A stretch of DNA of 63,512 nt, from contig NZ_JAGMUK010000009.1 of NCBI RefSeq assembly GCF_019049245.1, positions 1 to 63,512 of the forward strand. Reading direction: 5' to 3'. Both the position numbers and the translations under genes were made by a program. Positions 14,473 to 56,086 of this stretch are shown here, piece by piece. This stretch comes from Streptomyces sp. AC555_RSS877. Lineage in GTDB: Bacteria; Actinomycetota; Actinomycetes; Streptomycetales; Streptomycetaceae. The notes beneath the pieces were generated by a model. That model saw only the letters and a list, made by a program, of their open reading frames with translations, was not told the origin of the DNA and did not search any database. Within the stretch, counting starts at the first letter, position 1. Each line of letters starts with the position of its first letter.

Positions 14473-15182
14473 TGCAGTACATCCCGCCCGCCAACCTGCG
14501 AGGCCACGACCTCGCCCCGCTGCTCGCCGCCCGCGGCCTGGACGCCGACTGGATCAACCTGCACGACTTCGACCCGCACAGCCCGCAGAACGTCGCCCGG
14601 CACACCTACGCCGAGACCGCCGCGCTGGTGCCGTTCCACTACCGGACCGCGACGCCTTCGCTGCCCCAGCTGCGGGCCTGGATCGACGGCCTTGTCGCCG
14701 CCGCGAAGGAGACGCAGGAGGAGCGGCACTCGCCGATCGCCTCCATCACGCACGGCCCGTCCCTGCTGCTGCTCGGCGTGTGCGGTGTCGGCAAGACCCA
14801 CGAGGCGTATGGGGCGATGCGGGAGCTGGCCGTGTCCGGCGTGTACGCGCAATGGCAGGTGACCACCGCAGCCGATCTGTACGCCGCCCTGAGGCCGCGG
14901 CACGGCGTCGACTCGGAGGCCGAGTTCCGGCGGTTCCGGGACGCCCGCATGCTCCTCGTCGACGACTTGGGGGCGGAGCGGAAACCGACCGAGTTTACGG
15001 AGGAGGTCAACTTCCGGCTGATCAACCACCGTTACGAGCGGCACCTGCCCACCCTGATCACCTCCAACGCCGACGCCGACCAGCTCCGTGCCCGCCTCGG
15101 CGACCGCGTCACCAGCCGCCTCCGCGAAATGTGCGAGCGCGTCGCGATCAAGGGCAGCGACCGCCGCCGGAGGGCCGCATGA
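14472..15182 (+). CDS. DnaC-like helicase loader ATPase
   Basis: 236 residues from ATG 14472, overlapping the initiator stop by one base. AAA+ motifs are visible: Walker A GVCGVGKT (102-109), Walker B LLVDD (161-165), sensor 1 TSN (197-199) and an arginine-rich C-terminus. It would deliver the DnaB-type helicase (15385-16767) to the origin. Confidence 0.85.
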   Translation: MQYIPPANLRGHDLAPLLAARGLDADWINLHDFDPHSPQNVARHTYAETAALVPFHYRTATPSLPQLRAWIDGLVAAAKETQEERHSPIASITHGPSLLLLGVCGVGKTHEAYGAMRELAVSGVYAQWQVTTAADLYAALRPRHGVDSEAEFRRFRDARMLLVDDLGAERKPTEFTEEVNFRLINHRYERHLPTLITSNADADQLRARLGDRVTSRLREMCERVAIKGSDRRRRAA

Positions 15183-15388
15183 GTGCCCTGGACTTCTGTC
15201 GGGTCTGCAACGGCCACGGCTCCACGTTCACGACCGTCACGACCGACGTCCCCGGACTCACGCCCGTCATGCGCAAGCGCATCACCCAGGGCCGCGAAGC
15301 CGTCCTCGCGGCGCCCTGCACCGCCTGCGACGGCGAAGACCGAGCCACCCCGCATCTGGAATCCATCGCCGAGGAGTACGACGCGTGA
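15179..15388 (+). CDS. Small two-knuckle zinc-finger protein
   Basis: 69 residues from ATG 15179. CRVCNGHG at the N-terminus and CTACDGE in the second half form a DnaJ-like zinc pair. Sits between loader and helicase genes with overlaps on both sides. A role in the replisome is guessed only from position. Confidence 0.6.
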   Translation: MSALDFCRVCNGHGSTFTTVTTDVPGLTPVMRKRITQGREAVLAAPCTACDGEDRATPHLESIAEEYDA

Positions 15389-16767
15389 CCACCGACACCG
15401 AGATGTGGGCGCCCGACGAGGCCACGGCGGAAGCTGGCCCGCGCCCGCCCGCGCGGCCCTGCGACCTCGAGGCCGAACGCATCCTCGTCGCCACCGCGAT
15501 CATGCAGCCCGCCGCGATCGACGAACTCGGCGCCGAAGGCTTCGACCCCGCCGACATCACCACCGACTGGCTCCGCTGGTCCTGGTGGGCGGTAGAAGAA
15601 CTCCGCACAGCCTTCAACGACGGCGAACTCAAATACCTCGCCGTCCACCGGCAGCTGGAGACGTGGCACGCCGAGGGCCGCATGCCAGTTCGCGTACCCG
15701 CCATCAGCGACCTCATGGAACTCAGCAACCACGCCCACTACGGTGCCGCCGCCTGGTACGCCACCCGCGTCACCAAAAAAGCCGTAGCCGCCCGCATCGT
15801 CGCCCTCGGCTACGACGCCATCCTCAAAGGAAGCAGCCCCGCCTTCGACGAAGACGCCGACGTCGCCGCCATCCAAGCCGACCTCGACGGCGCCGTCCGC
15901 CCCACCGACGAAGACCACCTCGCCGCCATCGGCGACCTCCTCCTCGACAGCATCGAACGCGCAACCACCCCGCCCTCCAACGAAGACCGCATCCCCACCG
16001 GGTTCATCGACCTCGACAGCCTGCTCTGCGGCGGCTGGGCCCCCGGCCAGCTCGTCGTCATCGGCGCCCGCCCCGCCATGGGCAAGTCGACGCTCGCCGC
16101 AGACTTCGCCCGCGGCGCCGCCATCCGCAACAAGATCCCCACCCTGTTCGAGTCGCTGGAAATGTCGCAGGCAGAACTCTCCGACCGCATCCTGTCCGCC
16201 GAAGCCCGCATCGCCCACCACCACCTCAAGCAGGGCATCGCCACCAACGACGACATGACGCGGGCCGCCCGCCGAGCCCCCGACATTGCCGCCGCCCCCC
16301 TGTGGATCAACGACGGCGCGCTGCTGTCCCTGCCCATCCTGCGCGGCCGAGTTCGCAACCTCGTCCGCACCAAAGGGCTGCGGCTCGTCATCGTCGACTA
16401 CCTGCAACTCATGCAAGCGCCGAAGGCCGAGAACCGGCAGCAGGCCGTCGCCGAGATCTCCCGCAACCTCAAGCTGATCGCCAAGGACTTCGGGATCACC
16501 GTCATCGTCCTGTGCCAGCTCAACCGCGGCCCCGAACAGCGCACCGAGAAGAAGCCGCTGGTGTCCGACCTGCGCGAGTCCGGGGCGATCGAGCAGGACG
16601 CCGACATCGTCATCCTGCTGCACCGCGAAGACGCCTACGAGAAGGAAACCCCCCGCGCCGGCGAAGCCGACCTGATCGTCGGCAAGCACCGCGGCGGGCC
16701 CACCGCCACGATCACCACCGCCTTCCAAGGCCACTACAGCCGCTTTGTCGACATGGGGCAGACATGA
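15385..16767 (+). CDS. DnaB-like replicative helicase
   Basis: 460 residues from GTG 15385. The N-terminal helical domain (about 25-170) is joined to a RecA-fold domain with Walker A GARPAMGKS (227-235), Walker B VIVDYLQL (335-342), the LCQLNR segment and the SGAIEQDAD motif of DnaB-family enzymes. It would unwind phage DNA as a hexamer after loading by the upstream DnaC-like protein. Confidence 0.9.
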   Translation: MTTDTEMWAPDEATAEAGPRPPARPCDLEAERILVATAIMQPAAIDELGAEGFDPADITTDWLRWSWWAVEELRTAFNDGELKYLAVHRQLETWHAEGRMPVRVPAISDLMELSNHAHYGAAAWYATRVTKKAVAARIVALGYDAILKGSSPAFDEDADVAAIQADLDGAVRPTDEDHLAAIGDLLLDSIERATTPPSNEDRIPTGFIDLDSLLCGGWAPGQLVVIGARPAMGKSTLAADFARGAAIRNKIPTLFESLEMSQAELSDRILSAEARIAHHHLKQGIATNDDMTRAARRAPDIAAAPLWINDGALLSLPILRGRVRNLVRTKGLRLVIVDYLQLMQAPKAENRQQAVAEISRNLKLIAKDFGITVIVLCQLNRGPEQRTEKKPLVSDLRESGAIEQDADIVILLHREDAYEKETPRAGEADLIVGKHRGGPTATITTAFQGHYSRFVDMGQT

Positions 16768-21466: not shown

Positions 21467-22669
21467 TCAGGTGCCGAGTGCAGTAATCGCCTCCCTCAGG
21501 TCGGTTGCCGCGTGCGAGTGCTGGAATCGGGGCGCCGACAGCATCGAGCTCACGCGATGCGCGCGCTTGTTGATCCAGCTGATCTGGGCCTCGGCGGGGA
21601 GTGCCAGTACAGGGGCCATCGCCTCGGCTGCCGCTTCGACCTCGCCGAGTTGTACCTGGGCGGTCGCCAGGTAGATGTGGCACAGCCGCTCGTCGTCGAG
21701 GGACCGCTGCTCCGGCGCCATCTGCTTCCAAGAGGCGATCGCGGCCTCGGCTTCGGTTGCTGCGGTGCGCGCGTCGTCGCCGCCGTCCAGCCAGATCAAG
21801 GACGAGGCGGCGTAATACCGCTGCTTGGTCTCCGAGAATTCGAAGAGGCCGGCCAGGGAGTCGGGGCGGTGGATGCGCTCGCGTGCCTGCTCAGCGAGAT
21901 GCAGGGTGCGATTGGCGCCCCGGCTGTCGCCGAGGTTGGCGAGGCACTGGACCTCACCGCACACGAGCCGCGCCTCCCCGGAGCCTGGAACATCGCCGGC
22001 GTACTGGAGCCCGTCACGGACGTAATCCAGGGCGATGCCGTAGTCGCCGTTGAAGCGGGCGATCAGGGACTGCGTGCCACGCACCCACATCAGGAGTTCG
22101 GTGTCGCCCGCGTACTGGGCGCAGCGACCTGCGGCGCGCGCGTGCTCTAACGCGGCGTCGGCATCGCCGAGGTCGAGGGCGGCGTAGGCGAGGATTCCGG
22201 AGAGGCGCCCGGCGGCGACGTAGAGGTCGGCCCGCTCGTGGGGTCCGTGCCGGTAGTCCTGGAGGCGTTGGAGTGCGTCGCGGCGAAGCGTGTCGGCGCG
22301 GAGCAGCATCGGGCCGGGTGCCTGGGCGAGGTAGTCGACTGCCGTCTCTTCGACCCCGGCGTGGAGCTGGTCGATTTCCAGGTCGGCGAGCGCCATGAGG
22401 TCACGCGAGGTTGCGAGGGAGGCGGCCAGCGTCTTGCGGGTGGCTGCCTGTTCCTGCCGTTGTGAATGCTCGCGAAGGAACTCGGCGACGAGTGCCCCGT
22501 TTGCGTGCAGGGCGGTATCGGCTGCTTCCGCCAGCTCTGCCGTGGGGGCTCGCCGTCCTGTCTCCACATGGTGGATGTGGGTGCGGTGCATGAGGATTCG
22601 GCTGGACAGTTCAGCGAGGGTAAGGCCGGCGTCTTGCCGGTGTCGGCGGAGCTCCGTTCCGAAGGTCAT
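21467..22669 (-). CDS. XRE-family regulator with TPR-like C-terminal domain
   Basis: 400 residues from ATG 22669 (AGGATG just upstream). An upstream in-frame start at 22774 would add 35 non-conserved residues across the operator. HTH at residues 5-55 (TLAELSSRILMHRTHIHHVE), then about 330 residues of TPR-like helical repeats. This is the architecture of many Streptomyces XRE-TPR regulators, some of which respond to peptides or developmental signals. It may be a second immunity regulator or an acquired host-type gene. Confidence 0.75.
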   Translation of the reverse strand: MTFGTELRRHRQDAGLTLAELSSRILMHRTHIHHVETGRRAPTAELAEAADTALHANGALVAEFLREHSQRQEQAATRKTLAASLATSRDLMALADLEIDQLHAGVEETAVDYLAQAPGPMLLRADTLRRDALQRLQDYRHGPHERADLYVAAGRLSGILAYAALDLGDADAALEHARAAGRCAQYAGDTELLMWVRGTQSLIARFNGDYGIALDYVRDGLQYAGDVPGSGEARLVCGEVQCLANLGDSRGANRTLHLAEQARERIHRPDSLAGLFEFSETKQRYYAASSLIWLDGGDDARTAATEAEAAIASWKQMAPEQRSLDDERLCHIYLATAQVQLGEVEAAAEAMAPVLALPAEAQISWINKRAHRVSSMLSAPRFQHSHAATDLREAITALGT

Positions 22670-23132: not shown

Positions 23133-23161
23133 TTGTCAACGGTTAAGTGTTCCTCTACTGT
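23133..23161 (+). promoter_or_regulatory. Sigma70-type promoter TTGTCA-N17-TACTGT
   Basis: -35 TTGTCA (23133-23138) and -10 TACTGT (23156-23161) with optimal 17-base spacing. Transcription would begin near 23168 and read through the three hairpins into the gene at 23320. The complementary strand reads TTGACA over the same bases, so a leftward promoter for 22800-23102 may overlap. Confidence 0.55.
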
Positions 23162-23174
23162 CGAAGACGAACGA

Positions 23175-23276
23175 AGCCCCGACCGGTGGTTGCACACCGA
23201 ATCGGGGCTGCTCAACAGCCCTCCCCAGTGGTTGCACACCGGGGAGGGCCTGCCTGATCGGGTGGTTGCACACCCG
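23175..23276 (+). repeat. Three consecutive hairpins each presenting GTGGTTGCACACC
   Basis: The element GTGGTTGCACACC occurs at 23186-23198, 23228-23240 and 23262-23274. Each copy sits in a stem-loop with a different stem: AGCCCCGA/TCGGGGCT (23175-23182 with 23202-23209), GCCCTCCCC/GGGGAGGGC (23218-23226 with 23241-23249), and CGGGTG/CACCCG (23259-23264 with 23271-23276). Different stems with a constant loop sequence suggest selection on RNA structure. The array lies in the predicted 5' leader of the transfer-like operon. Confidence 0.7.
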
Positions 23277-23319
23277 GCCAGAACATCCGGAACCACCTGC
23301 GCTATCAGGAGGACCAGAC

Positions 23320-23610
23320 ATGGCAGATCGTACTTGGCAGGGCGCTAGTACCGGAACCGGCCTGCTCGACACCCCTACTCTGTCGCCTGCCGACCGCCTC
23401 GCTCACGAGACCGCGTCGTACCGCCGCTCCACCCCGCCCGCCCCGAAGCCGGCCCGCCGGATCCTGGAGCGTTTCTCGGCTGGCGCCCCGCGTGGCCAGT
23501 GGCCGGCGGAGTCCTACGCCGCGGAGCAGCGGCGCAACGGTGTCCCGGCCCGGGTCGTGATGGACCTCGCCTCCGACAGCTTCCTCGTCATCGTCGAGGG
23601 CGCGTCGTGA
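23320..23610 (+). CDS. Unknown protein, first gene of the transfer-like operon
   Basis: 96 residues from ATG 23320 with a strong AGGAGG site 8 bases upstream. Basic, Pro-rich middle (YRRSTPPAPKPARR) and a short alpha/beta C-terminus. No family recognised. Preceded by the hairpin leader; stop overlaps the next GTG. Confidence 0.6.
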   Translation: MADRTWQGASTGTGLLDTPTLSPADRLAHETASYRRSTPPAPKPARRILERFSAGAPRGQWPAESYAAEQRRNGVPARVVMDLASDSFLVIVEGAS

Positions 23611-23735
23611 GCCCCGCCGAGCAGGGCATGCAGGCGAAGGCTCTCGCGGAGCAGGCCCGGCAGCACATGGAGGCCGCGAAGGCTGCGGCCGAGGCTGCCG
23701 AAGCCGCCCGGCGCGCCGCCGAACAGCAGCGCTAA
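23607..23735 (+). CDS. Small Ala-rich coiled-coil protein
   Basis: 42 residues from GTG 23607 (GTGA overlap). Nearly all Ala/Glu/Lys helix (EAAKAAAEAAEAARRAAEQQ). Unknown. Confidence 0.45.
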   Translation: MSPAEQGMQAKALAEQARQHMEAAKAAAEAAEAARRAAEQQR

Positions 23736-23844
23736 CCCCCAATCCCCGCGGGTGGCGGTGTCCACCCCCGTCCCGCCGCCCGCGGCTCGCAATCCCCGCA
23801 CCACTCCCACCGTTCCTATGACCTTGAAAGGGTCTGTGATCCCC

Positions 23845-24129
23845 ATGTCTCCGTTCGTCTTCTCCGCCGATGCCGCCTTCTTCTCCGCCGAGGTGCGTGA
23901 GATCCGCGCCGGCCTGTTCGTCGACCAGATCGACGCCTCCTGGGAGGAGGTCCGCGGCGACGAGTCTGCCGAGCTGACGCTGCGAGCCCTCGCCGCGGAC
24001 CGGTCCGGTGACTGGGCCGCGCTGGACGCGATCGTCGCCCGGGCCAGGGAGATCGACGCCGCGAACCCGTTCGGTGAGCGGCTCGTCGACCAGCTGACGG
24101 CGCTCATCGACTACCCGGCCGCCGCCTGA
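23845..24129 (+). CDS. Unknown helical protein
   Basis: 94 residues from ATG 23845; earlier in-frame starts at 23818 or GTG 23836 are possible. Short hydrophobic N-terminus (FVFSADAAFFSAEV), then charged helices. No family. Confidence 0.5.
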   Translation: MSPFVFSADAAFFSAEVREIRAGLFVDQIDASWEEVRGDESAELTLRALAADRSGDWAALDAIVARAREIDAANPFGERLVDQLTALIDYPAAA

Positions 24130-24248
24130 TGGCTGTCCGCGACGCGCCCGCGCCGCAGCAGCCCGCGCCCACCGCCTCGGATCCACAGGCCATGGAAGAC
24201 GAGCCAGCCCAAATCTGGGAGCCCGGCGACTGCGACGACCCGTCCTAG
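24129..24248 (+). CDS. 39-residue acidic peptide
   Basis: ATG 24129 overlaps the previous stop (TGATG). Pro-rich and acidic (EDEPAQIWEPGDCDD). Might only serve translation coupling. Low confidence. Confidence 0.35.
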   Translation: MAVRDAPAPQQPAPTASDPQAMEDEPAQIWEPGDCDDPS

Positions 24249-24275
24249 CCCGACCCGACCTGAGAGGACAACCCG

Positions 24276-24476
24276 ATGCCTTCCACCAAAGCCCAGGTGA
24301 TCGTCTGGGTGATCACTGTGCTGCTGGCCGGCCGACTGGTCTTCGTCGCCGTGCAGCACGACATGCCGATCCTCGACACGGCCGCTATCGCCCTGCTGGC
24401 CGCCTACGGACTCAAGGCCGCCATCGAGAATCTCACCACGTCCGTCGCCCGTGCCCGGAACGGAACCAAGCGATGA
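24276..24476 (+). CDS. Small two-pass membrane protein
   Basis: 66 residues from ATG 24276 with GAGAGGA upstream. Two membrane helices (VIVWVITVLLAGRLVFVAV and ILDTAAIALLAAYGLKAAI) and a basic tail. Immediately precedes and overlaps the larger membrane protein at 24473; the pair resembles small 'spread' proteins of Streptomyces plasmids. Confidence 0.6.
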   Translation: MPSTKAQVIVWVITVLLAGRLVFVAVQHDMPILDTAAIALLAAYGLKAAIENLTTSVARARNGTKR

Positions 24477-25567
24477 GCGGCAACCGGCTGACCCGCTGGG
24501 TTCGACGCCTGGACGTGTTCGCGGTGATCGAGAAGCTGCTCACCCTGGCCGCACTGGTCTTGGTCGCCGTCACCGTTGGCGGGCAGTTGGGCCAGATCCT
24601 TGGCTTGCACGGCACGGTCGGTCTGCTGGCCGGCTGGTCGATCGCCGTCGTGTACGACGCGCTGTGGATTGGTGCGTTGCGCATGTCGGAGGTGGCGATC
24701 CGGCAGCGGTCCACGGTCGGTATCGCCGTGATGCTCGGCCTGTCGGTCGTCGCGGTCGGCACGTCGACGGCGACCCTGCTGATCCTCGGTCACGCCCAGG
24801 TGTTCGCTTTCGTCCCGGTCGCCGCCGCTCTGTTCATGGGGCTGCGCCTGTTCGCTGGGAACGTCCTGGCCGACGCCGACACCGCGGCGGCCATCGCCGA
24901 GCAGTCCGCCGCCGACCGCAACGCCCGAGCCCTGGCCGCAGCCGACGCCCGGCATCTGCGTGCTGAGGCCACCACCGACGTCGTCACCGAGACCGCCGGG
25001 CATCTCGCCGAGGCGGAACGCCAGATGGCCCGAGCGGATGTCCTGACCCGAGCGCAAGCTCAGATCAACAAAGCGCGGGCCAAGGCCGAGGAGCGGCTGG
25101 CGAGCTCCGAGAAAGAGCACGGCACGGCGGCTCTCGCCTTCGCTGAAAGGGACCTCGTGCTGGCCGTGTCCCGCCCCGTGGTCACGGCTGGTGGACACGT
25201 CGCGGCTGAGCTGGATGGTCACACGGTGGTCACACAGGCCAAGCCGGAAATCGAGCCCGTGACCATCCCGCCCGTGACTGCGGACGAAACGGACACGGTC
25301 ACAGTTCCGGTACAGGCCCCAGTCGAGGACGGAATGACCCTTCAGGACCTCGCCGACATCAAGGGCATCGAGCTCCCAGAACCCGGCGCCACCCTGTCCG
25401 ACGATCAACTCGAAGTCGTCCTGCGCTGGCTGCGCTACGCCATGGAGCCGCCCCGCTCCTACCGGCAGGCGCAGGCCGAGTTTCGCGCCCACGGCTTCAG
25501 GGCCCGCGAGGAGCGCGTCCGCCGCATCTGGGGCGAGATCGAAACGAACGAAGCCAAGGTCCACTGA
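24473..25567 (+). CDS. Membrane protein with cytoplasmic coiled coil, spread (Spd)-like
   Basis: 364 residues from ATG 24473. Four hydrophobic segments lie in the first 130 residues (about 17-38, 47-67, 82-105 and 108-128). A long Ala/Glu/Arg helix covers about 135-225, then a Val/Thr/Pro-rich linker, and a C-terminal helical domain (DDQLEVVLRWLRYAM…REERVRRIWGEI) resembles an HTH. This architecture is seen in Streptomyces plasmid spread/DUF2637-type proteins that work with TraB. Assignment rests on architecture and on the translocase gene downstream. Confidence 0.55.
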   Translation: MSGNRLTRWVRRLDVFAVIEKLLTLAALVLVAVTVGGQLGQILGLHGTVGLLAGWSIAVVYDALWIGALRMSEVAIRQRSTVGIAVMLGLSVVAVGTSTATLLILGHAQVFAFVPVAAALFMGLRLFAGNVLADADTAAAIAEQSAADRNARALAAADARHLRAEATTDVVTETAGHLAEAERQMARADVLTRAQAQINKARAKAEERLASSEKEHGTAALAFAERDLVLAVSRPVVTAGGHVAAELDGHTVVTQAKPEIEPVTIPPVTADETDTVTVPVQAPVEDGMTLQDLADIKGIELPEPGATLSDDQLEVVLRWLRYAMEPPRSYRQAQAEFRAHGFRAREERVRRIWGEIETNEAKVH

Positions 25568-25758
25568 CCGCAGGCCGGCACAGCCAGTGAGGCCCAGCCC
25601 CCCACGGTCTGGTCCTCGCTGAGACTGCCGGAAGCAGTCGAAGCAGCAAAAACGCAGGTCAACCCGGTGAGTGAGCCGGTGAGCGGAACCCTCGCAGACC
25701 CGGCAAGCAGACCCGGACACCGACACCACACGAACCGACCGAGAGGAGGAGCAGGCAC

Positions 25759-25947
25759 GTGAGCGGATCCACGTACTGGGCCAAGGAGATCAAGCAGGCG
25801 GACCGGCGCTCCCCGAAGGAGGGCGCGACCCGCCGGCTGGATCGGCTGCGCAGCGAGCTGCGCGGCCTGGATCCGGTGGTGGCCAACCGCGCGTGGGGCG
25901 AGATCGGTGATGCCCTCCAGCGCATCACCGACCGCTACACGCAGTAA
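25759..25947 (+). CDS. Unknown small protein
   Basis: 62 residues from GTG 25759 with GAGGAGGAG upstream. Charged and helical (LDRLRSELRGLDPVVANRAW). The upstream 190 bases (25568-25758) hold no clear gene. Confidence 0.5.
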   Translation: MSGSTYWAKEIKQADRRSPKEGATRRLDRLRSELRGLDPVVANRAWGEIGDALQRITDRYTQ

Positions 25948-26035
25948 ACGTTCACCCGCTCATTCACCCACGGGACAGATGAACTCTGCCTGTGCTACGC
26001 GCGCACGTGCGCGCACCAGGTAAACGTTCACCCGC
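25944..26035. repeat. 16-bp direct repeats flanking a 16-bp palindrome (candidate clt/operator)
   Basis: GTAAACGTTCACCCGC at 25944-25959 and again, identical, at 26020-26035. Between them a third TTCACCC (25963-25969) and the perfect palindrome GCGCGCAC|GTGCGCGC (25999-26014). It lies in the short gap before the operon encoding the TraB-like protein. This organisation suits a regulator-binding site or the cis-acting transfer locus (clt) that Streptomyces TraB proteins recognise. Confidence 0.5.
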
Positions 26036-26063
26036 CCCAGTCACAGACCGTGAAAGGAAGACG

Positions 26064-27155
26064 ATGGAGATCCTGCTCATCGCGTGCATGCTCGCCTACG
26101 CGGCTGGCGCGCAGAGCGAGCAGTCGAAACTGGGGATGTCCCCGGCGCAGCGCGCCATCCTCAAAGAAGAGGCCCGGCACGAGAAGGCCGTCCGGAAGAT
26201 CGCCGACAAGTACGGGGACGCCCCGGTCAAGAGCGGCCCGGCAGCCACCTCGCCCTGGAAGAACGCTCCGGCAGCCAACGGGCAGCACGCCACCACCATT
26301 ACTGAAGCCTTCCGCTCCGCATACCGGGGCCACACCCCGGTCCAGCGGGTGGCAACACCAATGGGCAGGCGTGCCGGCGGCTGGGTGGCGCGGGGCGTGG
26401 CTTGGGGCGAGGACACCGGCCGCGGAGCTCTGCGGGAATTCCGTAAGCGCCGCCAAGCCGGGGGCGGCAACGATCCGGCCCCCGTGCTCGTGCCGGCGCC
26501 GCCCGCACACCCGCCGACCGTTCCCCCCATGCCCGCTCAGCCCCCGCAGCCGCCCGCAGCCGCCGTCGGCGGTGCAGGCCAAGGCGTCTCGCTGGCGAAG
26601 CCGGCCGCCGCACCCGGCGGCGGAGCGGCTACTGCTCCAGCCGGCGTCACGCCCCCACAGCAGACGCCGGTGCCCCCAACCGTCCCCACCCCGCAACCCG
26701 CCGCCAACCAAGGAGGAACAGGGCGTATGGCAGCAGAAGTGACCTACGAGTCCGTCATGGACGAGAGCGACGAACTGTCCCTCATGTGCGACGACGACGT
26801 CCGCGTCTACGACCGCATCCGCACGCGCTGCGAAAGGGAAGCCGGCCGCGCCGACGAACTGATCGCCGCCATGGATCTCATGGGATTCGGGCCGACCGTC
26901 ACCCGCTGGGTCGTCCGCGCCAAAGAGCAGTACCAGGTCATCCAAGGCCAGGTCGACGACCTGCAGACGAACACGATCGCCCAGGGCGAGCAGGTCGTGA
27001 AAGCCAAGACGCTCCTCGAAGCCGGGCAGGGCGTCTACGCCGGCATCGCCCAGGACATGGAAGACGTCGCCGACCGCGACGCCTACATCTCCGACGCCGT
27101 CGACGCCGAAGACACCACCGCCCACACCGAGATCTACGAGACGCAGGGAGCCTGA
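26064..27155 (+). CDS. Large Pro-rich protein with coiled coil, transfer-module associated
   Basis: 363 residues from ATG 26064 with GAAAGGAAG upstream. A short hydrophobic N-terminus (EILLIACMLAYAAG), a basic region, a Pro/Ala-rich linker (about 140-225), then an acidic helical domain (residues 230-355) with coiled-coil character. No enzyme motif. Its place between Spd-like and TraB-like genes suggests an accessory transfer function. Confidence 0.55.
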   Translation: MEILLIACMLAYAAGAQSEQSKLGMSPAQRAILKEEARHEKAVRKIADKYGDAPVKSGPAATSPWKNAPAANGQHATTITEAFRSAYRGHTPVQRVATPMGRRAGGWVARGVAWGEDTGRGALREFRKRRQAGGGNDPAPVLVPAPPAHPPTVPPMPAQPPQPPAAAVGGAGQGVSLAKPAAAPGGGAATAPAGVTPPQQTPVPPTVPTPQPAANQGGTGRMAAEVTYESVMDESDELSLMCDDDVRVYDRIRTRCEREAGRADELIAAMDLMGFGPTVTRWVVRAKEQYQVIQGQVDDLQTNTIAQGEQVVKAKTLLEAGQGVYAGIAQDMEDVADRDAYISDAVDAEDTTAHTEIYETQGA

Positions 27156-27157
27156 CC

Positions 27158-27550
27158 GTGAGCGCAACAAACAGCGTCGGAGCGATCGTCACCTACGCCA
27201 GCGTCCTGGCCAGGGGCGCCGCGTACAGCATCCGTGCCGCCAACACCCGCCGGGCAGTGGAACGGATGCAGTCCCGGTTCCAGGAGCGGGCCGACTCCGC
27301 CCGCTACCTCGCCGAAGCCATGACCGTCCTGCACGTCGACGAGCCGACCACCACCGCGTACATGGAGGTCGCGACCCTGTCGGACGCCATGGCCGCCAAC
27401 GTCGCCGGGATCGTCTCCGCCTCCGACTCGCTGTCCACCGTGGCGCAGGGCCTCGACAGCGAGACGAAAGCCCAGCACGGGCGCATGGCGGACGCCAACC
27501 GCACCCACAGCGTGCAGATGGCCGACCGCGAGTTCATCAAGCGCTCCTGA
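27158..27550 (+). CDS. Unknown helical protein of the transfer module
   Basis: 130 residues from GTG 27158, two bases after the previous stop. Amphipathic helices with a mildly hydrophobic N-terminus (GAIVTYASVLARGAAYSI). No family. Followed by a strong terminator. Confidence 0.55.
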   Translation: MSATNSVGAIVTYASVLARGAAYSIRAANTRRAVERMQSRFQERADSARYLAEAMTVLHVDEPTTTAYMEVATLSDAMAANVAGIVSASDSLSTVAQGLDSETKAQHGRMADANRTHSVQMADREFIKRS

Positions 27551-27566
27551 AGGGGGCGCACACCAG

Positions 27567-27600
27567 GAAGGGCGGGGTCGCACCCCTGACCCCGCCCTTC
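27567..27600 (+). terminator. 13-bp stem terminator before the TraB-like gene
   Basis: GAAGGGCGGGGTC (27567-27579), 8-base loop, GACCCCGCCCTTC (27588-27600). Perfect stem. The TraB-like gene starts 28 bases further, so it either needs read-through or has its own promoter. Confidence 0.75.
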
Positions 27601-27628
27601 ACCACCGCAGACCCGGAGACGAATCCCG

Positions 27629-30190
27629 ATGGCAACGTCGACCATAGCCACACCCCAGACCACGGAAGAAGCTTCCCAGCCCCAGCCGGGCGGGACGAAC
27701 TCCTGCATCCAGCAGCTGCACAATCCCGGCGTGTACGCGGGCGCCGGACTCGGTATCGCCTCCGCCTGTCTGTCTGGCGACCCGCTCCTGGTCACGACGA
27801 TCGGGGCCACGGGCATCGCCGCCGGCTGGACCGCCTTGGGGATGAATCCGGGCCCGTGGCGGTGGCTACCCGGGCACGGCGAGCCGTGGGAGTGGCTGTG
27901 CCGCCGCAGCAGCAGCGTCTACCGGCGCAAGGCGCGCCGTATGCGCCGCCGCCTCGGGCAGACCGCCGACACCCCGGCGGAGGGCCTGTTCGTCATCGGC
28001 GTGTGTGACGGCTGGCGCAACCGTGAAGACCGGCCCGCACTGGTCCGCGAGGCGACCGCCGAAGCCCACCGTCTGCGGTGCGCCTCCCTGCGCCATGCAT
28101 GGGCGAACGCCCTTCCCAACTGGGATCGCGGATGGTGGCGCCGCTACACGCCCGCCGAAATGGTCCTGCGCGCCGGCCCTGCTGTAGCGATCCCGGCCAG
28201 CGGCTTCGCCGACGTCCCCTGGTGGGCCCACCTCGCCGTCGTCTCCGTAGCTGCAGCCTGGGGTTCCTGGCTGTGGGACCGCCCCGAGCCGGGCGCCCCG
28301 GCCGTCGAGAGCGCGCAGGCAGCGGACTGGTATCTGGCCCGCTGGCAGGAGTGGATCGCCCACGAGCGGGGCCCGCTGCCCGCATCCAAGCTCACCAGCC
28401 TGCACGTGGACGACGACAAGCTCACCGCGATCATCGTGTCCACCACGACCCGGCCCGCCCTTGGTGTCGACCAGGACGCCGTGTCGATCGCATTCCGTGT
28501 ACCGCCGCGTGCCGTGAACATCTACCGGCCCGACGACATGCCCGCCGACCGGGCCAAGCTCACCGTCAAGCTGCGCGCCCTGACCAGCACCGAACTCGAC
28601 ATGGACGACCTGGCCGCGGTGTGGGACGAGTTCAATCCCTATCCGGGCAGCAAGCTGTACGACGCGCAGAAGACCGAGCACGGCCGCAGCTTCAAGCTGC
28701 TCATGCCGCGCAAGGGAGCCTCGGTCGCTGACGTGCAGCCCCGTGTCGTCGCCCAGGTCCTCGATCTGGACGGCGAAGAGGCCGTCGCCCGGCTGCACCT
28801 GCGGATGCTCGACGCCCGCCGCATCGAGGTCAGCGAAATGACCCAGAACCCGCTACAGGAAGGGGTGCCGCTCGACCTGGTCGCCCTCACCATGGACGAC
28901 GAGGGCTACATCATCGTCGGCAAAGACGTCCACGGCCGGCCCGCCAAGTGGCGGCTCCTCAAGTTCGACGCCAAGCGCCGCGGCTTGTCCGGGCAGTCGT
29001 CCGCGTCTGCGGTCCACGCGTTCGGCTCCGGCACCACCGGAGCAGGCAAGACGTCCCTGGAAGAAGACCTCCAAGTCGCGCAGCGGCTCAACGGGTTCAT
29101 CTCCTGGCTCGCCGACGGTAAGGGCGGAGCGGGCTACGCCCCGTGGATGCCGGAACTGGACTGGCTGCTCAAGTCCCCCTACGGGGCAATGCTCATGGGC
29201 CAGGCCGCCAACGCGGTCAGTGAGTACCGGTACGCCGAGCAGATGAAGATGCAGTGGCTCGACGAGGAGGGCTTCACCGAGCAGGGCCGCAGCTTCTTCG
29301 TGCCCGGTGAGCCGTTCGCGCCCATGGTCACGACGTGGGACGAGTTCAACGAGATGATCCTCAAGGACCCGCAGGCCGACCACGTGAAGCCGCTGCTGCG
29401 GTCCGTGTCCTCCGTGGGCCGTCTGTCCCGTGCCGCCGGTATCGCCGCCCGCATCTGGGTGCAGATCCCCAACCTGGACTCGATCGGCTCCGACGCCAGC
29501 GCCAACGCCATCCGCGACATGCTCCAGTCCGGGAATATCGCCCTCTTCCGCACCGCCCGCGCGGACGTCGACATCATGTCGCTCGGCTCCCGCACCCCGG
29601 AGATCAGGCTCGCCCCGCTCCCCGAACGCTTCCCGAACGGCTCCGAGACCGGCGGCCTCTGCTACATCGCCGACGGCAAAGCCCAGTACACGCAGTCGAG
29701 GGCCATGTTCCACAGCAACCCGGCCCGCGTCGCACGCCAGTTCCCCCTGGAGACCCTGACCTCGGCGGAAGCCGACGCGGCAGCCGCAGCCGGCCCCGCC
29801 GGTCTCGCCTACCTGCGCCGCGAGGAGTACCGGCACGCCGACGCCGGCGAGGAGGAGGAGTTCCTCCGCGAACTCGTGGCCAAGGAGCAGGAGAAGAACA
29901 AGAAGAACACCAAGGTCATTGCCACCCGGGCCGCACCCGCAGCGCCTGCCGCCGCGGACGTCGAAGACGACGACCTGGACGACCTCGTCCCCCCGACCCG
30001 CTCACAGCTGGTCTGGCAGGCCGTAGACAGCGGCGCCCGACGCAACAAGCAGATCTCCGAGGTCACCGACCTGAAGCCCACCAACGTCGCCAACGCGACA
30101 GCCCGCCTGGAACGCCTCGGAAAGCTCACCAAGAAGCAGCGCGACTGGCACACCGCCGAACCCCTCGACACCGAATCCATCAGCGCCTAA
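27629..30190 (+). CDS. FtsK/SpoIIIE-type DNA translocase, TraB-like
   Basis: 853 residues from ATG 27629. Hydrophobic segments near residues 34-72 and 197-215 suggest membrane anchoring. The motor domain has Walker A GTTGAGKT (468-475, Lys474) and Walker B VTTWDE (567-572). The C-terminus (about 790-845, RSQLVWQAVDSGARRNKQIS…NATARLERLGK) forms a winged helix, as in FtsK gamma and TraB DNA-recognition domains. TraB proteins of Streptomyces plasmids and ICEs move double-stranded DNA between hyphae. In a phage genome this is unusual; it could serve conjugative spread or partition of an episome. Confidence 0.8.
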   Translation: MATSTIATPQTTEEASQPQPGGTNSCIQQLHNPGVYAGAGLGIASACLSGDPLLVTTIGATGIAAGWTALGMNPGPWRWLPGHGEPWEWLCRRSSSVYRRKARRMRRRLGQTADTPAEGLFVIGVCDGWRNREDRPALVREATAEAHRLRCASLRHAWANALPNWDRGWWRRYTPAEMVLRAGPAVAIPASGFADVPWWAHLAVVSVAAAWGSWLWDRPEPGAPAVESAQAADWYLARWQEWIAHERGPLPASKLTSLHVDDDKLTAIIVSTTTRPALGVDQDAVSIAFRVPPRAVNIYRPDDMPADRAKLTVKLRALTSTELDMDDLAAVWDEFNPYPGSKLYDAQKTEHGRSFKLLMPRKGASVADVQPRVVAQVLDLDGEEAVARLHLRMLDARRIEVSEMTQNPLQEGVPLDLVALTMDDEGYIIVGKDVHGRPAKWRLLKFDAKRRGLSGQSSASAVHAFGSGTTGAGKTSLEEDLQVAQRLNGFISWLADGKGGAGYAPWMPELDWLLKSPYGAMLMGQAANAVSEYRYAEQMKMQWLDEEGFTEQGRSFFVPGEPFAPMVTTWDEFNEMILKDPQADHVKPLLRSVSSVGRLSRAAGIAARIWVQIPNLDSIGSDASANAIRDMLQSGNIALFRTARADVDIMSLGSRTPEIRLAPLPERFPNGSETGGLCYIADGKAQYTQSRAMFHSNPARVARQFPLETLTSAEADAAAAAGPAGLAYLRREEYRHADAGEEEEFLRELVAKEQEKNKKNTKVIATRAAPAAPAAADVEDDDLDDLVPPTRSQLVWQAVDSGARRNKQISEVTDLKPTNVANATARLERLGKLTKKQRDWHTAEPLDTESISA

Positions 30191-30217
30191 CCCACCTCGC
30201 AGAAACGGACTCATCTC

Positions 30218-30445
30218 ATGACCATCGCAATCAGCACTCTGTTCTTCATCGCCTGCATCGGTATGGCCTGGTGGTTCAAGAAGGACTCGTCCTTCCGACC
30301 GCGGGAGTTCATCGCCGTGTCCGTGTTCTGGATCCTCCTCGTCGCCACCCCGGTCGGCGCGGACGTCGTCAAGAAGATGCAGGACATGGTCGGCAACGGC
30401 GCCCGGACCAGCATCGACACCGTCGACTCCGTCTCGTCCAAGTAG
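30218..30445 (+). CDS. Small membrane protein after TraB-like gene
   Basis: 75 residues from ATG 30218. Two hydrophobic segments (IAISTLFFIACIGMAWW and FIAVSVFWILLVATPVGA) separated by a basic loop. Probable two-pass protein of the transfer module. Confidence 0.55.
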   Translation: MTIAISTLFFIACIGMAWWFKKDSSFRPREFIAVSVFWILLVATPVGADVVKKMQDMVGNGARTSIDTVDSVSSK

Positions 30446-30452
30446 CCCCGCC

Positions 30453-30479
30453 AGACGGCCCGCAGCTCGCGGGCCGTCT
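30453..30479 (+). terminator. 11-bp stem terminator
   Basis: AGACGGCCCGC (30453-30463), 5-base loop, GCGGGCCGTCT (30469-30479), directly after the stop at 30445. Confidence 0.7.
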
Positions 30480-30523
30480 CCGCCCCCGAACCGCGCCACC
30501 TGGCCCGGAAGGAGACCCAGCCC

Positions 30524-30997
30524 ATGCCTGCACAGCCTGAGCCCACCGACCGGGCCGAAGTCACCAAGCTCGCCAACGCCGTCGAGGAAGCCCTCCTGGA
30601 GGCCATACCGAAGAGCTTCCGCGACGACAGCCCCGTCCCGCTCATCGGTAGCGCCCCGCCGGTCGCCCAGCCTGGCGTGCCGCCCATGTCGCAGCGGGCC
30701 ACCGACATTGGCCGCCTCATCACGTACAGCTCCCTCGCCACCGTGCCGCCCGGCCTTATCGCGATCGGCCTCATGCTCGCCTCCGAGCATGCCAACCCGA
30801 CCGTCATCGGCATGATCTGCGCCGCACCCGCCGCGATCGCCGTACCGATCCTTGCGTTCGCACGGCTCCTCCGCGGCGCGAAGGACGTGCTGCCCAGCGA
30901 GATCCACCAGCACTACAACGGCACCGTCATCCAGCAGACCACCCACAGCGAGACCCGCGGTGTGTGGGCCCGCACCAACAACCAGCTGCCCAAGTGA
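30524..30997 (+). CDS. Two-pass membrane protein, transfer-module associated
   Basis: 157 residues from ATG 30524 with AAGGAGA upstream. Acidic N-terminus, two membrane helices (about 66-85 and 92-115), and a short C-terminal tail (SEIHQHYNGTVIQQTTHSET). Unknown function; similar small membrane proteins accompany Tra genes in Streptomyces plasmids. Confidence 0.55.
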   Translation: MPAQPEPTDRAEVTKLANAVEEALLEAIPKSFRDDSPVPLIGSAPPVAQPGVPPMSQRATDIGRLITYSSLATVPPGLIAIGLMLASEHANPTVIGMICAAPAAIAVPILAFARLLRGAKDVLPSEIHQHYNGTVIQQTTHSETRGVWARTNNQLPK

Positions 30998-31008
30998 AGG
31001 AGAAGCCC

Positions 31009-31380
31009 GTGCCCATCGCCACCGCCCTCTCGCTCGCCGAGGTTCTCGACGGCTGCCCGGAAGAGGAGTTCGTCGTCTGGCTTGACGAGTACAGCGCCTA
31101 CCTGTTCCTCGGCCACCTCGACGCCGACACCGCGCAGACCCGCATCCGGACCGGCTACACGATCGACCCCGAAACCCTCGAGCACCGGCACATCCGCTTC
31201 GACCGGCACGAGCACGACAGCTGCGGAGGCGACATCGACGACTGCGGACGCGACTGCCACGAGCAGCCCTGGTGGGTTCGCGAGGCGCCCGACGGCATTC
31301 CCGCGACCATGGTCATGGCCTGGTACAGCGCCGAGGAGAAGACCACCGCGGACGCGATCGCCGCACTCAAAGCAATGTGA
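31009..31380 (+). CDS. Unknown acidic protein
   Basis: 123 residues from GTG 31009 with AAGGAG 7 bases upstream. Contains a His/Cys cluster (HEHDSCGGDIDDCGRDCHE) that could bind metal. Last gene before a U-containing terminator. Confidence 0.6.
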   Translation: MPIATALSLAEVLDGCPEEEFVVWLDEYSAYLFLGHLDADTAQTRIRTGYTIDPETLEHRHIRFDRHEHDSCGGDIDDCGRDCHEQPWWVREAPDGIPATMVMAWYSAEEKTTADAIAALKAM

Positions 31381-31390
31381 TCAGCCAGCA

Positions 31391-31423
31391 GAAGGGCCCG
31401 GACCGTCATCGGTCCGGGCCTTC
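31391..31423 (+). terminator. Intrinsic terminator ending the transfer-like module
   Basis: A 14-bp stem with one bulged G: GAAGGGCCCGGACCG (31391-31405), loop TCAT, CGGTCCGGGCCTTC (31410-31423), followed by TTGTG. Clear boundary of the 23133-31380 block. Confidence 0.8.
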
Positions 31424-37553: not shown

Positions 37554-39273
37554 GAGGCCGACGGCTGGCGTGGATGCGGCGGAGTTGGAGCGGCTGAAGC
37601 TGGCTCCGGAGATCGCCTGGTATCTGAACGATCGCGGGATTCCGCTGCCGGACTGTCCGCCGCTGGTGCAGACGCCGTCTCCGGGTGAGGCGCCGGGGGC
37701 GGTGTTCGATGCGGAGCGCGTCGACAAGGTGCTGAACGCGTTTTCGAAGCTGCGGCACACGCAAGGTCAGTGGGCGGGGCAGCCGCTGAAGCCGGATCCG
37801 TGGCAGGTCGCCTATGTCCTGGCGCCGGTGTTCGGCTGGGTTCGCTGGGATGAGGACGCCGACTCCTACGTGCGGATCGTGCGCGAGCTGTATGTGGACG
37901 TGCCGCGCAAGAACGGCAAGTCGACGCTGGCCGGCGGGCTTGCGATCTACATGACGTGCGCGGATGGCGAGCAGGGCGCGCAGGTCATCACGGCGGCGAC
38001 GACGAAGGAGCAGGCCGGGTTCGTCTTCGAGCCGGTGAAGAAGCTCGCCGAGGCGGCGCCCGCGCTGAAGAAGCACGTCCTGCCGCTGAAGGACAAGATC
38101 CTGCACAAGCGGTCCGGCTCCTACTTCAAGCCGATCGCATCGGTGGCGGGCGCCCAGCACGGCGCGAACATTCACTGCGCGATCGTCGACGAGCTGCACG
38201 AGCACAAGACGCCCGAGCTGGTCGAGACGATCGAGACAGGTACCGGTTCGCGCCGACAGCCGCTCGTCGTGATCATCACGACGGCGGACTCCGGGAAGCG
38301 CGAGTCGGTGTATGACCGCAAGCGCAAGCGGGTCGAGCAGCTGTCGCGCAGGGTGTTCGCGGCCCCGTCGGTGTACGGGGTGGTGTGGGCGGCGGAGAAG
38401 GACGACGACCCGCACGTCGAGGCGACGTGGCGCAAGGCGAACCCGGGCTACGGGGTGTCGCCGACCCGGTCGTACCTGCAGGCCAAGTCGGATGAGGCCA
38501 AGCAGTCTCCGGCGGATCTGGCGAAGTTCCTGCGCCTGCACTTGGGGCGCCGGACGAAGCAGGAGACGAAGTATCTGACGCTGGAGTCGTGGAACCGTAA
38601 CGCTGGCATGGTCGATGAGGCGAAGTTGGCCGGCCGCGAGGCGTATGGCGGGCTCGATCTGGCCGCGACCAGCGACCTGTGCGCGCTGTGCTGGCTCTTT
38701 CCAGACGATGAGCGCGGCGGCTTCGATGCTCTGTGGCGGCTGTGGACGCCGGAGGACAACGTCGCGGCCCTGGACCAGCGGACGGCCGGTTCGGCGTCCG
38801 TGTGGGTGCGTGAGGGCCTGCTGGTGACCACGCCGGGCAACGTCGCGGACTACGACTACATCCAGTTGCAGATCGAGCGGGACATCGACACCTTCGATGT
38901 CCGCTCAGTGGGCTTCGACCCGTGGTCGGCGGTCCCGCTGACGAACGAGCTGGCCAAGTCCGAGGCGCCGATGGTGAAGGTTCGGCAGGGCTTCGTCACG
39001 ATGTCGCCGCCGTTGAAGGAGCTGCAGCGGCTGCTGCTGAAGGGCACGCCAGAGGCGCCGCAGCTGCGGCACGGCGGGAATCCGGCGGTGGCGTGGATGG
39101 TCGACAACCTCGCGGTGGCAATGGACCCGGCCGGGAACGTGAAGCCGGACAAGGCGCGCAGCGCGGAGAAGATTGACGCCGTGTCTGCGCTGGTGACGGC
39201 GCTGTCTGAGGCGATGGCCCGCGAGCCCGTACAGAAGAGCGCTTACGAGGACGGCGACCTCGAGGTCGTGTGA
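37522..39273 (+). CDS. terL: Terminase large subunit
   Basis: 583 residues from ATG 37522. N-terminal packaging ATPase with Walker A-like VPRKNGKST (127-135) and Walker B IVDE (221-224), and motif III near VIITTADSG. The C-terminal nuclease half begins about residue 370 with GGLDLAATSDL. Typical Terminase_1 of HK97-like phages. Cuts and pumps DNA into the prohead through the portal. Confidence 0.93.
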   Translation: MAARTTTRSRKRPTAGVDAAELERLKLAPEIAWYLNDRGIPLPDCPPLVQTPSPGEAPGAVFDAERVDKVLNAFSKLRHTQGQWAGQPLKPDPWQVAYVLAPVFGWVRWDEDADSYVRIVRELYVDVPRKNGKSTLAGGLAIYMTCADGEQGAQVITAATTKEQAGFVFEPVKKLAEAAPALKKHVLPLKDKILHKRSGSYFKPIASVAGAQHGANIHCAIVDELHEHKTPELVETIETGTGSRRQPLVVIITTADSGKRESVYDRKRKRVEQLSRRVFAAPSVYGVVWAAEKDDDPHVEATWRKANPGYGVSPTRSYLQAKSDEAKQSPADLAKFLRLHLGRRTKQETKYLTLESWNRNAGMVDEAKLAGREAYGGLDLAATSDLCALCWLFPDDERGGFDALWRLWTPEDNVAALDQRTAGSASVWVREGLLVTTPGNVADYDYIQLQIERDIDTFDVRSVGFDPWSAVPLTNELAKSEAPMVKVRQGFVTMSPPLKELQRLLLKGTPEAPQLRHGGNPAVAWMVDNLAVAMDPAGNVKPDKARSAEKIDAVSALVTALSEAMAREPVQKSAYEDGDLEVV

Positions 39274-39284
39274 GAGGGGTTGCC

Positions 39285-39506
39285 GTGTTCGGGTGGTTTC
39301 CGTGGCGCCGCACTGCGGTCCGCAAGCGTGTGATCGTCAACCTGGGCGACAAGGCGTTCGCGGGCATTTTGTGGGCGAAACGCGGTTCGCTGCTGGTGTT
39401 GAAGGACGCGGTGCTGATGCAGCACGGCGCTGCGGACACTCCGCTCGACGGCGAAGTCATCGTCGAACGGTCGAAGGTGGACTTTATTCAGGTGGCGGGG
39501 GGCTGA
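39285..39506 (+). CDS. Small protein between terminase and portal
   Basis: 73 residues from GTG 39285 (AGAGGGG upstream); GTG 39270 is an alternative. FGWFPWRR, then beta-rich VIVNLGDKAFAGILW…SLLVLKDAVL, resembling a small Sm-like barrel. A gene of this kind often lies between terL and portal in actinophages; function unknown. Confidence 0.6.
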   Translation: MFGWFPWRRTAVRKRVIVNLGDKAFAGILWAKRGSLLVLKDAVLMQHGAADTPLDGEVIVERSKVDFIQVAGG

Positions 39507-39507
39507 C

Positions 39508-41460: not shown

Positions 41461-41462
41461 CC

Positions 41463-42284
41463 ATGCGGATCAAATCCTGCCCGGTGCGGATCAAGGCCGC
41501 GGGCACCCACGAAGGCACCGACGAGGGCGTGTTCGAAGCCATCGTCGCCGCCTACAACCTGGACAGCGTCGGCGACAAGATCACCCCAGGGGCCTTCGCG
41601 GAGACCCTCGCGGAGTGGAAGGGGCGCGGGGATCCGATCCCGGTGCTGTGGTCGCACATGTCCCACGACCCCGAGTACCACATCGGCGAGGTTCTGGAGG
41701 CCGAGGAGCGTCCGGAGGGACTGTGGGTCAAGGCCCGCCTGGACACCGAACCCGGCACGAAGGCCGCGCAGGTGTACAAGCTGCTGAAGGGCCGGCGCGT
41801 CACCCAGTTTTCCTTCGCCTACGACATCGAAGAGGGCTCGTGGGTCGACGAGAAGGACAGCGACGGCTTCTACGAGCTGCGCAAGCTGAAGCTGTACGAG
41901 GTCGGTCCGACACTGATCGGCGCCAACCAGGCCACCGAGCTCATCGACGTGAAGAGCAGGCAGGCCGCTGAGACGTTCCCGGACCTGGCCAAGGTTCAGG
42001 AGGCCCTGGAGGGCCTGAAGTCCGGCAGGACCCTGTCGGCGAAGAACGAGGGGCGGGTGCGTGACATCGCGCGCCTTGCAACCGAGCTGCTGGACTCGCT
42101 TCCTTCCAGCGCTGATGAATCGCAGGACGCCGAGAAGGCCACGCCTGTCCCGCCCGCTGACGCCTCGCCTCAGGACGCGCCTGAGACCAAGGCCGAGCAG
42201 CCCGCCGGGCCGAGCCCCGCCTCGCTCCGTCTGCACACCGATCTCGAAGCCCTTGCGTTCGAGGTCTACACGCTTACGGACTGA
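41463..42284 (+). CDS. HK97-family prohead protease
   Basis: 273 residues from ATG 41463. Protease core in residues 1-170 with catalytic-type His65 (VLWSHM) and Ser117 (TQFSFAYDI). The acidic Pro/Ala-rich C-terminal 90 residues may act as an attached scaffold. Cleaves capsid precursor during head maturation; capsid gene follows directly. Confidence 0.9.
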   Translation: MRIKSCPVRIKAAGTHEGTDEGVFEAIVAAYNLDSVGDKITPGAFAETLAEWKGRGDPIPVLWSHMSHDPEYHIGEVLEAEERPEGLWVKARLDTEPGTKAAQVYKLLKGRRVTQFSFAYDIEEGSWVDEKDSDGFYELRKLKLYEVGPTLIGANQATELIDVKSRQAAETFPDLAKVQEALEGLKSGRTLSAKNEGRVRDIARLATELLDSLPSSADESQDAEKATPVPPADASPQDAPETKAEQPAGPSPASLRLHTDLEALAFEVYTLTD

Positions 42285-42292
42285 GGAGAACC

Positions 42293-46716: not shown

Positions 46717-46791
46717 CCCCTGCTCCCGGCAGGCGTGCCATGCGGGTCGCGCCTGCCGGGCCCCAACCCGCTACACCCGCAAGGAGAAAGC

Positions 46792-47537: not shown

Positions 47538-47549
47538 CGGGGGTGCGCG

Positions 47550-52142: not shown

Positions 52143-52152
52143 GGAGGTTCCC

Positions 52153-54387: not shown

Positions 54388-54389
54388 GC

Positions 54390-56077: not shown

Positions 56078-56086
56078 GGAGGCCGC

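Follow-up and report, generated by a model that had tools for sequence, protein, structure and literature searches.

According to two reports, plasmid transfer in Streptomyces employs TraB, an FtsK-like motor that moves double-stranded DNA (dsDNA) without other known type IV subunits, together with Spd membrane proteins for septal spread and 8-bp clt repeats (PMC12857230; PMC5133688). The consensus recognized by TraB of plasmid pSVH1 is given in one of them, a review, as 5'-GACCCGGA-3' (PMC5133688). Here we describe a block of genes at positions 23133-31423 of contig NZ_JAGMUK010000009.1 of Streptomyces sp. AC555_RSS877. The block lies in an integrated temperate phage and encodes a large FtsK-like motor (P0001), a four-pass membrane protein (P0002) and several small partners. 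The window that we analyzed is the whole of this contig (C8; 63,512 bp, in a genome of 10.36 Mb assembled in 243 contigs). Our best reading, drawn from comparison with known systems, is that the block is a TraB/TcpA-like dsDNA transfer module adapted to temperate phages. On balance we think it probable that, with no virions involved, it carries the excised dsDNA phage genome through hyphal cross-walls and on into adjacent cells.

The TraB/clt system of pSVH1, pIJ101 and related plasmids shares several features with this block: an FtsK-type motor with a C-terminal winged helix, a multi-pass membrane protein nearby and a repeat array that holds GACCCGGA. Moreover, no relaxase of the PF03432 family, the one relaxase family searched, was found in the whole genome, as expected for dsDNA transfer. 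Because these features fit the TraB scheme, transfer or mycelial spread appears to be the likely function. The block differs from that scheme in that its motor matches no TraB or FtsK model, its GACCCGG array tracks the membrane protein and not the motor, and it is carried by an integrated phage.

Other elements are comparable in part. The plasmid-phage pZL12 (phage ZL12, NC_013420), which the preliminary description had cited as a precedent, is a 90-kb phage-plasmid, unlike the integrated phage of the window; its record lists a 'putative Tra3-like' gene but gives no match to PF01580 (FtsK family). The 90-kb circular Streptomyces plasmid pSAM1 encodes a distant homolog of the motor (25% over 495 aa), one gene away from an annotated terminase and with a GntR regulator upstream, whereas the other genes of the module have no detectable relatives there. 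A tblastn search of the 50,697 INPHARED records, which include ZL12, returned no match for P0001, P0002, the pSAM1 motor or the motor of a related locus, L117; the motor of another related locus, L165, had two weak hits, both to Cylindrospermopsis phages. Actinomycete integrative and conjugative elements integrate, excise and transfer dsDNA with an FtsK-type protein. To our knowledge they carry no head, tail or lysis genes, all of which are present in the element described here. Our searches of an open-access library, from which most subscription papers are missing, turned up no description of such a module in integrated Streptomyces phages.

A motor cassette exchanged with plasmids

P0001 has 853 residues, with a Walker A motif (GTTGAGKT) at 468-475, invariant residues D571/E572 that agree with a Walker B motif at 567-572, and, in the predicted structure, a C-terminal winged helix at about 787-848. 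The preliminary description, made from the letters alone, had read this anatomy correctly. By profile and by predicted fold, the FtsK/SpoIIIE-type motor domain is closest to TcpA, with FtsK second. Its best solved relative is TcpA of pCW3 (PDB 6o1w-6o1z), a conjugation coupling protein, at 14-16% identity and with the winged helix of P0001 outside the aligned part; in contrast to pCW3, none of the window proteins that were scanned was recognized as another type IV secretion component.

A tblastn search against plasmids returned 115 records, eight of which have a single place covering at least 80% of P0001. Three large Streptomyces plasmids (NZ_CP013744, NC_015951 and NZ_CP109239) carry the same core in the same order as the window: the 62-aa gene, a gene of the 363-aa type, the 130-aa gene, the motor and the 75-aa membrane gene. 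They are CdTB01 (288,836 bp, circular), pSTRVI01 of Streptomyces violaceusniger (290,055 bp, circular) and a linear plasmid of S. albidoflavus (170,064 bp), and all three have a GntR regulator some kilobases upstream of the module. We read these plasmids within about ±16 kb of the motor and searched them as a whole with the window terminase only. The best matches of the motor thus include plasmids with shared neighbours, and not only chromosomal FtsK or phage proteins, and its fold is closest to that of a conjugation coupling protein; by the refuting condition on best matches set in the preliminary description, its reading thus stands.

The core order and a whole P0002 also occur in six further phages (G393, G074, G167, G396, G394 and G402), each with terminase, portal and capsid genes on the same contig, except that only terminase and portal were seen in G167. 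By portal, terminase and capsid, the seven phages fall into four head/packaging sets: the window and G393; G074, G167 and G396; G394; and G402. The terminases of the window and G393 are 91% identical, yet their motors come from different supported clades. Mapped onto a tree of 18 motors, the phage label has to change three times, and well-supported branches force two of these changes; a single clade of phage motors (seven phages plus a fragment from S. candidus, against 10 other rows) is rejected by the approximately unbiased (AU) test (p-AU 1.4e-52). The fragments L012 and L054 were left out of this tree, L045 was included without a label, and duplicates (G401 of G167, G055 of pSTRVI01) were counted once. 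Seven of the 10 non-phage labels are provisional (G397, G398, G399, G400, G403, G405 and G350); these loci were checked only with hallmark proteins of three phage types, a test that overlooked G402, a phage by its PHROGs, so some of these labels may be wrong. A PHROG scan left one large open reading frame (ORF) of G399 without a match and matched two of G403 to ParB-like and endolysin families.

The motor is under purifying selection, with a ratio of nonsynonymous to synonymous substitutions (dN/dS) of about 0.18-0.34 in four pairs (for example 0.052/0.295 for G074-G167 and 0.165/0.558 for window-G394). Since the phage motors are rejected as one clade and at least two label changes are forced by supported branches, we conclude that the cassette has been exchanged with plasmids, and it is kept under selection.

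Among these phages, the 887-aa terminase of G394 (L069, 6325-8988) includes a region that DNA primase and DnaC-like families match as well.

A membrane protein with a phage-type half and its neighbouring repeats

P0002 consists of an N-terminal half with four transmembrane segments (4-TM half), a long coiled coil and a C-terminal helical domain at about 285-364. Hydropathy gave four hydrophobic segments in P0002, two each in the products of 24276-24476 and 30218-30445 and one in that of 30524-30997, in line with the four-pass protein and small membrane proteins proposed in the preliminary description. A precomputed domain, PF27079, is listed for P0002 in the protein search. We considered P0002 as a DUF2637 protein and rejected this, as no model matched and BLASTP to the annotated DUF2637 protein of pSTRVI01 gave only E 0.038. 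It is Spd-like by anatomy and position only, and is a candidate DNA docking protein.

The 4-TM half was found in all 10 phage loci that have this motor or spacer A (a count that includes the S. candidus fragment), and in none of 10 other loci compared; the 17 remaining terminase-clade loci that were scored have no P0002. The C-terminal domain occurs on two of the three compared plasmids, pSTRVI01 being the exception. On the plasmids compared, the composition claimed for the block holds for its core and not for the four-pass half of P0002.

The spacer that follows the P0002 gene, spacer A (Table 1), begins with a hairpin in which six pairs are changed on both sides in some sequence, as compensatory changes. 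In 260-bp stretches of 18 loci we counted 28 copies of GACCCGG on the gene strand and none on the other, with three loci lacking any; 2,000 sets of random stretches gave a mean of 1.35 and a maximum of 7, and the 18 loci are related and so do not amount to 18 independent trials. The pSVH1 consensus GACCCGGA itself occurs at 25710, at 27610 directly before the motor gene, and at four other places in the window.

We scored spacer A against a 37-position consensus built from the 15 loci that have the P0002 C-terminal domain. Fourteen of these score 28-37 and one (L049) scores 24, while all 22 loci without the domain score 21-25 and a shuffled window 23. Two loci outside the consensus agree: G321 has the domain, a score of 36 and a motor of another type, and G081 has no such domain and scores 22. 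Spacer A thus tracks the P0002 C-terminal domain. Proximity by itself would couple the gene to the spacer; the change, however, falls inside the gene: in L047, L048, L008 and L010 the N-terminal membrane half is not of the phage type while the C-terminal domain and spacer A stay, and in G081 the N-terminal part is kept (85/140 identical) and the C-terminal domain is not (19/84, in a forced alignment). The C-terminal domain and the spacer therefore form a kept unit, and, judging from these sequences, P0002 is the likely reader of spacer A. At G081 (L187), the P0002 relative with the different C-terminal part lies upstream of an ORF that ends, at the locus cut, with a motor-like GSAGAGKT.

Spacer A had also been proposed as a binding site of the motor, because GACCCGGA is the TraB consensus. 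This proposal was weakened and set aside, as L117, L164 and G321 combine spacer A with another motor, and spacer A is missing from five loci that have the motor type of the window.

Spacer B behaves differently. It is present in 18/18 loci with this motor type and in 0/21 others, is 115-117 bp long in 17 of the 18, and has a mean column identity of 75%, with TTCAC repeats and a central palindrome; it tracks the motor cassette. The palindrome is GCGCGCACGTGCGC-like in all eight phage loci and ACGCGTACGTACGCG-like in all 10 others, with symmetric changes in both arms.

These patterns bear on two other explanations. Phage genomes are mosaic and the module has been exchanged, so that it might be passive cargo taken from a plasmid and of no use to the phage. 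We give this almost no credence, given the purifying selection, the retention of the module with four head/packaging sets, and a P0002 half and a spacer B palindrome form that are seen in phages only. Alternatively, the motor and its membrane partner might push prophage circles through septa into compartments or spores, serving partition and stability without transfer to other strains. The kinship of the motor with FtsK and the phages' own P0002 membrane half (10/10 phage loci, 0/10 others compared) are compatible with this, and, according to one report, it is difficult in mycelial hosts to tell spread from stability (PMC4170104). However, an integrated prophage needs no partition, the cassette has been exchanged with plasmids, and the closest solved structure is a conjugation coupling protein; we regard septal maintenance as an unlikely role.

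The slot upstream of the terminase in related phages

The block lies upstream of the packaging genes (terminase) and on the same strand. To see what relatives hold at this place, we collected loci with similar terminases. IMG/VR gave 55; we processed 51 of them, and in 22 the sequence extends 4 kb or more upstream of the terminase. Searching 392 Streptomyces genomes gave 13 such terminases in 12 other genomes. A divergent FtsK-like motor was found in the slot in 13 of the 35 relatives examined. Seven of the 22 IMG/VR loci have one of 673-723 aa: L159 and L165 are above the Pfam FtsK cut-off, L117 and L164 were found by the P0001 profile, L146 and L160 were tied in by similarity to the others, and L134 exceeds the Pfam FtsK cut-off only in a six-frame search. 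Six of the 13 genome loci (L170-L173, L178 and L181) have a motor-like ORF of 580-717 aa, which for L170 and L178 rests on a weak motor-domain match (23-24%) and on a partner membrane gene like that beside other such motors.

No motor was found in the other 15 IMG/VR and seven genome loci, some of which are short stretches. Many motor-less slots show a block of multi-pass membrane genes. For instance, L138, L131, L139, L145, L153, L157, L174-L176 and L179 have a related terminase, and no large motor that we could find; their slot holds a membrane protein of 287-541 aa and, after it, a multi-pass protein of 140-200 aa. This pair is possibly a motor-less spread locus.

The preliminary description presented the block as a striking hybrid, and in this its interpretation is only partly supported: such an association is not unique to the window, as it is seen repeatedly in phages with four head/packaging sets and, where the motors are of other types, across the terminase clade.

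That divergent motors fill the slot in relatives would be expected under rivalry, for example if the motor blocked incoming TraB plasmids or related phages. Such a role in competition between elements seems very improbable in view of the intact ATPase motifs and winged helix, the purifying selection and the conserved candidate cis site alongside. The gene order also raises the idea that the module works during the lytic cycle and distributes phage DNA within the infected mycelium before lysis, with virion-free transfer between strains as a side effect. In the window, G074, G167, G394, G396 and G402, the block precedes the terminase and virion genes and shares their strand (the G393 contig is split, so that the order is not visible there), and other motor types are likewise upstream in seven related contigs. 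We consider this improbable, because the block has its own leader and closing hairpin and GntR-kind regulators as on plasmids, and because plasmids keep the core cassette.

A tentative generalization, which may prove correct but which we would not yet lean on, is that temperate Streptomyces phages form a large unrecognized class with two exits, virions and relaxase-free pumping of the whole genome as dsDNA. The slot upstream of the terminase would then be a standard transfer locus for divergent TraB/TcpA/FtsK-type motors, and a phage-specific membrane protein, not the motor, would pick the DNA via a repeat array beside its own gene.

Integration site and layout of the element

The identical 44 bp at the two contig ends form the core of the attachment (att) site. 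The core occurs twice more in the genome: close to the end of contig C162, where 54 bp of the window's left end come after it, and close to the start of contig C63, where 54 bp of the window's right end come before it, which makes overlaps of 98 bp on both sides. From these facing copies we conclude that the element is integrated in the Streptomyces chromosome between C162 and C63. The core is, in frame, the 3' end of a chorismate mutase gene (CM_2, E 4e-22), for which the prophage brings a substitute end. The contigs stop exactly around the core, and this suggests a phage attachment site (attP) junction in a circular or tandem form, since the assembly graph breaks at the core on both sides if the junction of right end, core and left end is in the reads.

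With its integrase, att sites, and replication, terminase, portal, protease, capsid, tail and lysis genes (Table 1), the element appears to be a complete temperate tailed phage, siphovirus-like by its gene content, which bears out the full set of virion genes noted in the preliminary description. In addition to the integrase, a Resolvase domain (PF00239, the N-terminal domain of serine recombinases) is encoded at 59295-59903. The minus-strand gene at 12512-13078 encodes a small protein that starts with a weak GIY-YIG match and has a Phd/YefM antitoxin domain, with relatives in L014 and L052. We found no partition gene among the window proteins scanned, a subset of all its proteins, and no tRNA or Rfam match in the window.

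Table 1. Positions of the transfer-like block, the phage genes and the attachment sites in the window
Feature	Position	Strand	Evidence or remark
att core, left copy; 3' end of chorismate mutase gene	1..44	.	exact repeat of 63469-63512; also on facing ends of chromosomal contigs C162 and C63
Integrase, probably tyrosine type	136..1416	-	phrog_1, E 2.1e-31; Phage_int_M under its cut-off
Replication genes: initiator-like protein, DnaC/IstB-like ATPase, DnaB helicase	13534..16767	+	PF03796, 1.2e-85; PF01695, 1.3e-9; phrog_270; phrog_19
Helix-turn-helix (HTH) regulator, facing away from the module	21467..22669	-	HTH_31, 7e-14
Promoter-like TTGTCA-N17-TACTGT (23133-23161) and leader of three hairpins	23133..23319	+	by eye; RNA fold z -5.05; relatives
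66-aa two-pass membrane protein	24276..24476	+	hydropathy
P0002: 4-TM half, long coiled coil, C-terminal helical domain	24473..25567	+	
Spacer A: RNA hairpin, then GACCCGG repeats (25697, 25710); candidate cis transfer site	25568..25758	+	
62-aa conserved module protein	25759..25947	+	61-87% identity in 17 other loci with this motor type
Spacer B: TTCAC repeats and palindrome GCGCGCACGTGCGCGC (25999); candidate operator or cis-acting site for the motor cassette	25948..26063	+	
363-aa Pro/Ala-rich accessory protein, C-terminal half conserved	26064..27155	+	
130-aa accessory protein	27158..27550	+	
Spacer C: hairpin GAAGGGCGGGGTC/GACCCCGCCCTTC and GACCCGGA at 27610	27551..27628	+	
P0001: TraB/TcpA/FtsK-like DNA translocase, 853 aa	27629..30190	+	
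75-aa two-pass membrane protein	30218..30445	+	adjoins the motor in 17/18 loci, not in L049
157-aa protein with one TM segment, phrog_19266	30524..30997	+	1.6e-46; also upstream of terminase in relatives with other motors
Strong terminator-like hairpin closing the block	31391..31423	+	
Large terminase, portal, head protease, major capsid protein	37570..43582	+	phrog_9, 2662, 3244, 10
Major tail protein, tape measure, tail proteins, endolysin	46156..57505	+	PHROG and profile matches
Two small GntR-type HTH proteins	61017..61919	-	PF00392, 1e-14 and 9e-16
att core, right copy	63469..63512	.	exact repeat of 1..44

The leader of the block contains three tandem hairpins (23175-23283) with an identical loop, GTGGTTGCACACC, and differing stems. 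It is found in whole or in part in five IMG/VR contigs, one of which (L081) has two exact copies. The promoter-like pair is kept in four of the five, reading TAGTGT in one of these, and the HTH regulator is kept at 85-93% in three (L079, L082 and L083), L080 and L081 being short. In L079 the leader precedes a module with another motor type, so the leader and the regulators stay there while the module changes. From its sequence, the three-hairpin leader resembles a switch that would control the transfer operon at the RNA or the operator level. A promoter and a terminator of its own had been claimed for the block: the promoter-like pair seen by eye and the strong closing hairpin speak for them, but a sigma-70 consensus scan found no promoter for the block and a terminator scan did not list the hairpin. 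A tandem-repeat search found no array that could be tied to the module.

A proposed model for virion-free transfer of the prophage

Several observations weigh against the proposed transfer role. P0001 has no match to the Pfam FtsK (PF01580) or the NCBIfam plasmid_TraB (NF041214) model, and we therefore file it as TraB/TcpA-like and not as a member of the TraB family; P0002 likewise matches no Spd or DUF2637 model, so that the family membership suggested earlier for the two proteins was not borne out by these models. The N-terminal membrane segments of P0001 are weak by hydropathy (37-55 and 192-210, seen only at a lowered threshold), with helices there in the model. Both structural models are of modest confidence, with a predicted local distance difference test (pLDDT) score of 69 for P0001 and a lower one of 65 for P0002. 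The 4-TM half of P0002 was not found on the three plasmids compared, and the phage module is thus not a plain copy of a plasmid one. Spacer A is probably read by something other than the motor, since it does not track the motor. With different spacer limits, GACCCGG was counted 33 times on the plus strand and four times on the minus strand, these four in pSTRVI01-like loci that have no spacer A. Finally, the attP junction rests on contig ends, and tandem prophages would give the same fork.

If the block is a transfer module, it might work as follows. Integrase-driven excision would be followed by release of the operon by the GntR/HTH regulators. P0002, the 4-TM protein, would dock the phage DNA at the membrane, and its C-terminal domain would read the GACCCGG repeats of spacer A beside its own gene. 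The motor, together with its 62-, 363-, 130- and 75-aa partners and spacer B, would assemble as a hexamer and pump the phage circle through, in the manner of TraB with Streptomyces plasmids. Integration at the chorismate mutase gene of the recipient could follow.

Gene transfer by phages and by conjugative elements is commonly regarded as following two distinct routes. In this case, a single integrated virus and the clade around it have a plasmid-type transfer cassette that is under selection, whose core is exchanged with plasmids and which has a membrane part of its own. A question that can now be put to the test is whether, in Streptomyces, the reader of a clt-type site may be a docking protein in the membrane rather than the motor. 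Should transfer be borne out, whole prophage genomes could pass within a mycelium and from one mycelium to another with no lysis, and this would be part of the explanation for the spread of temperate phages in hosts growing as connected hyphae.

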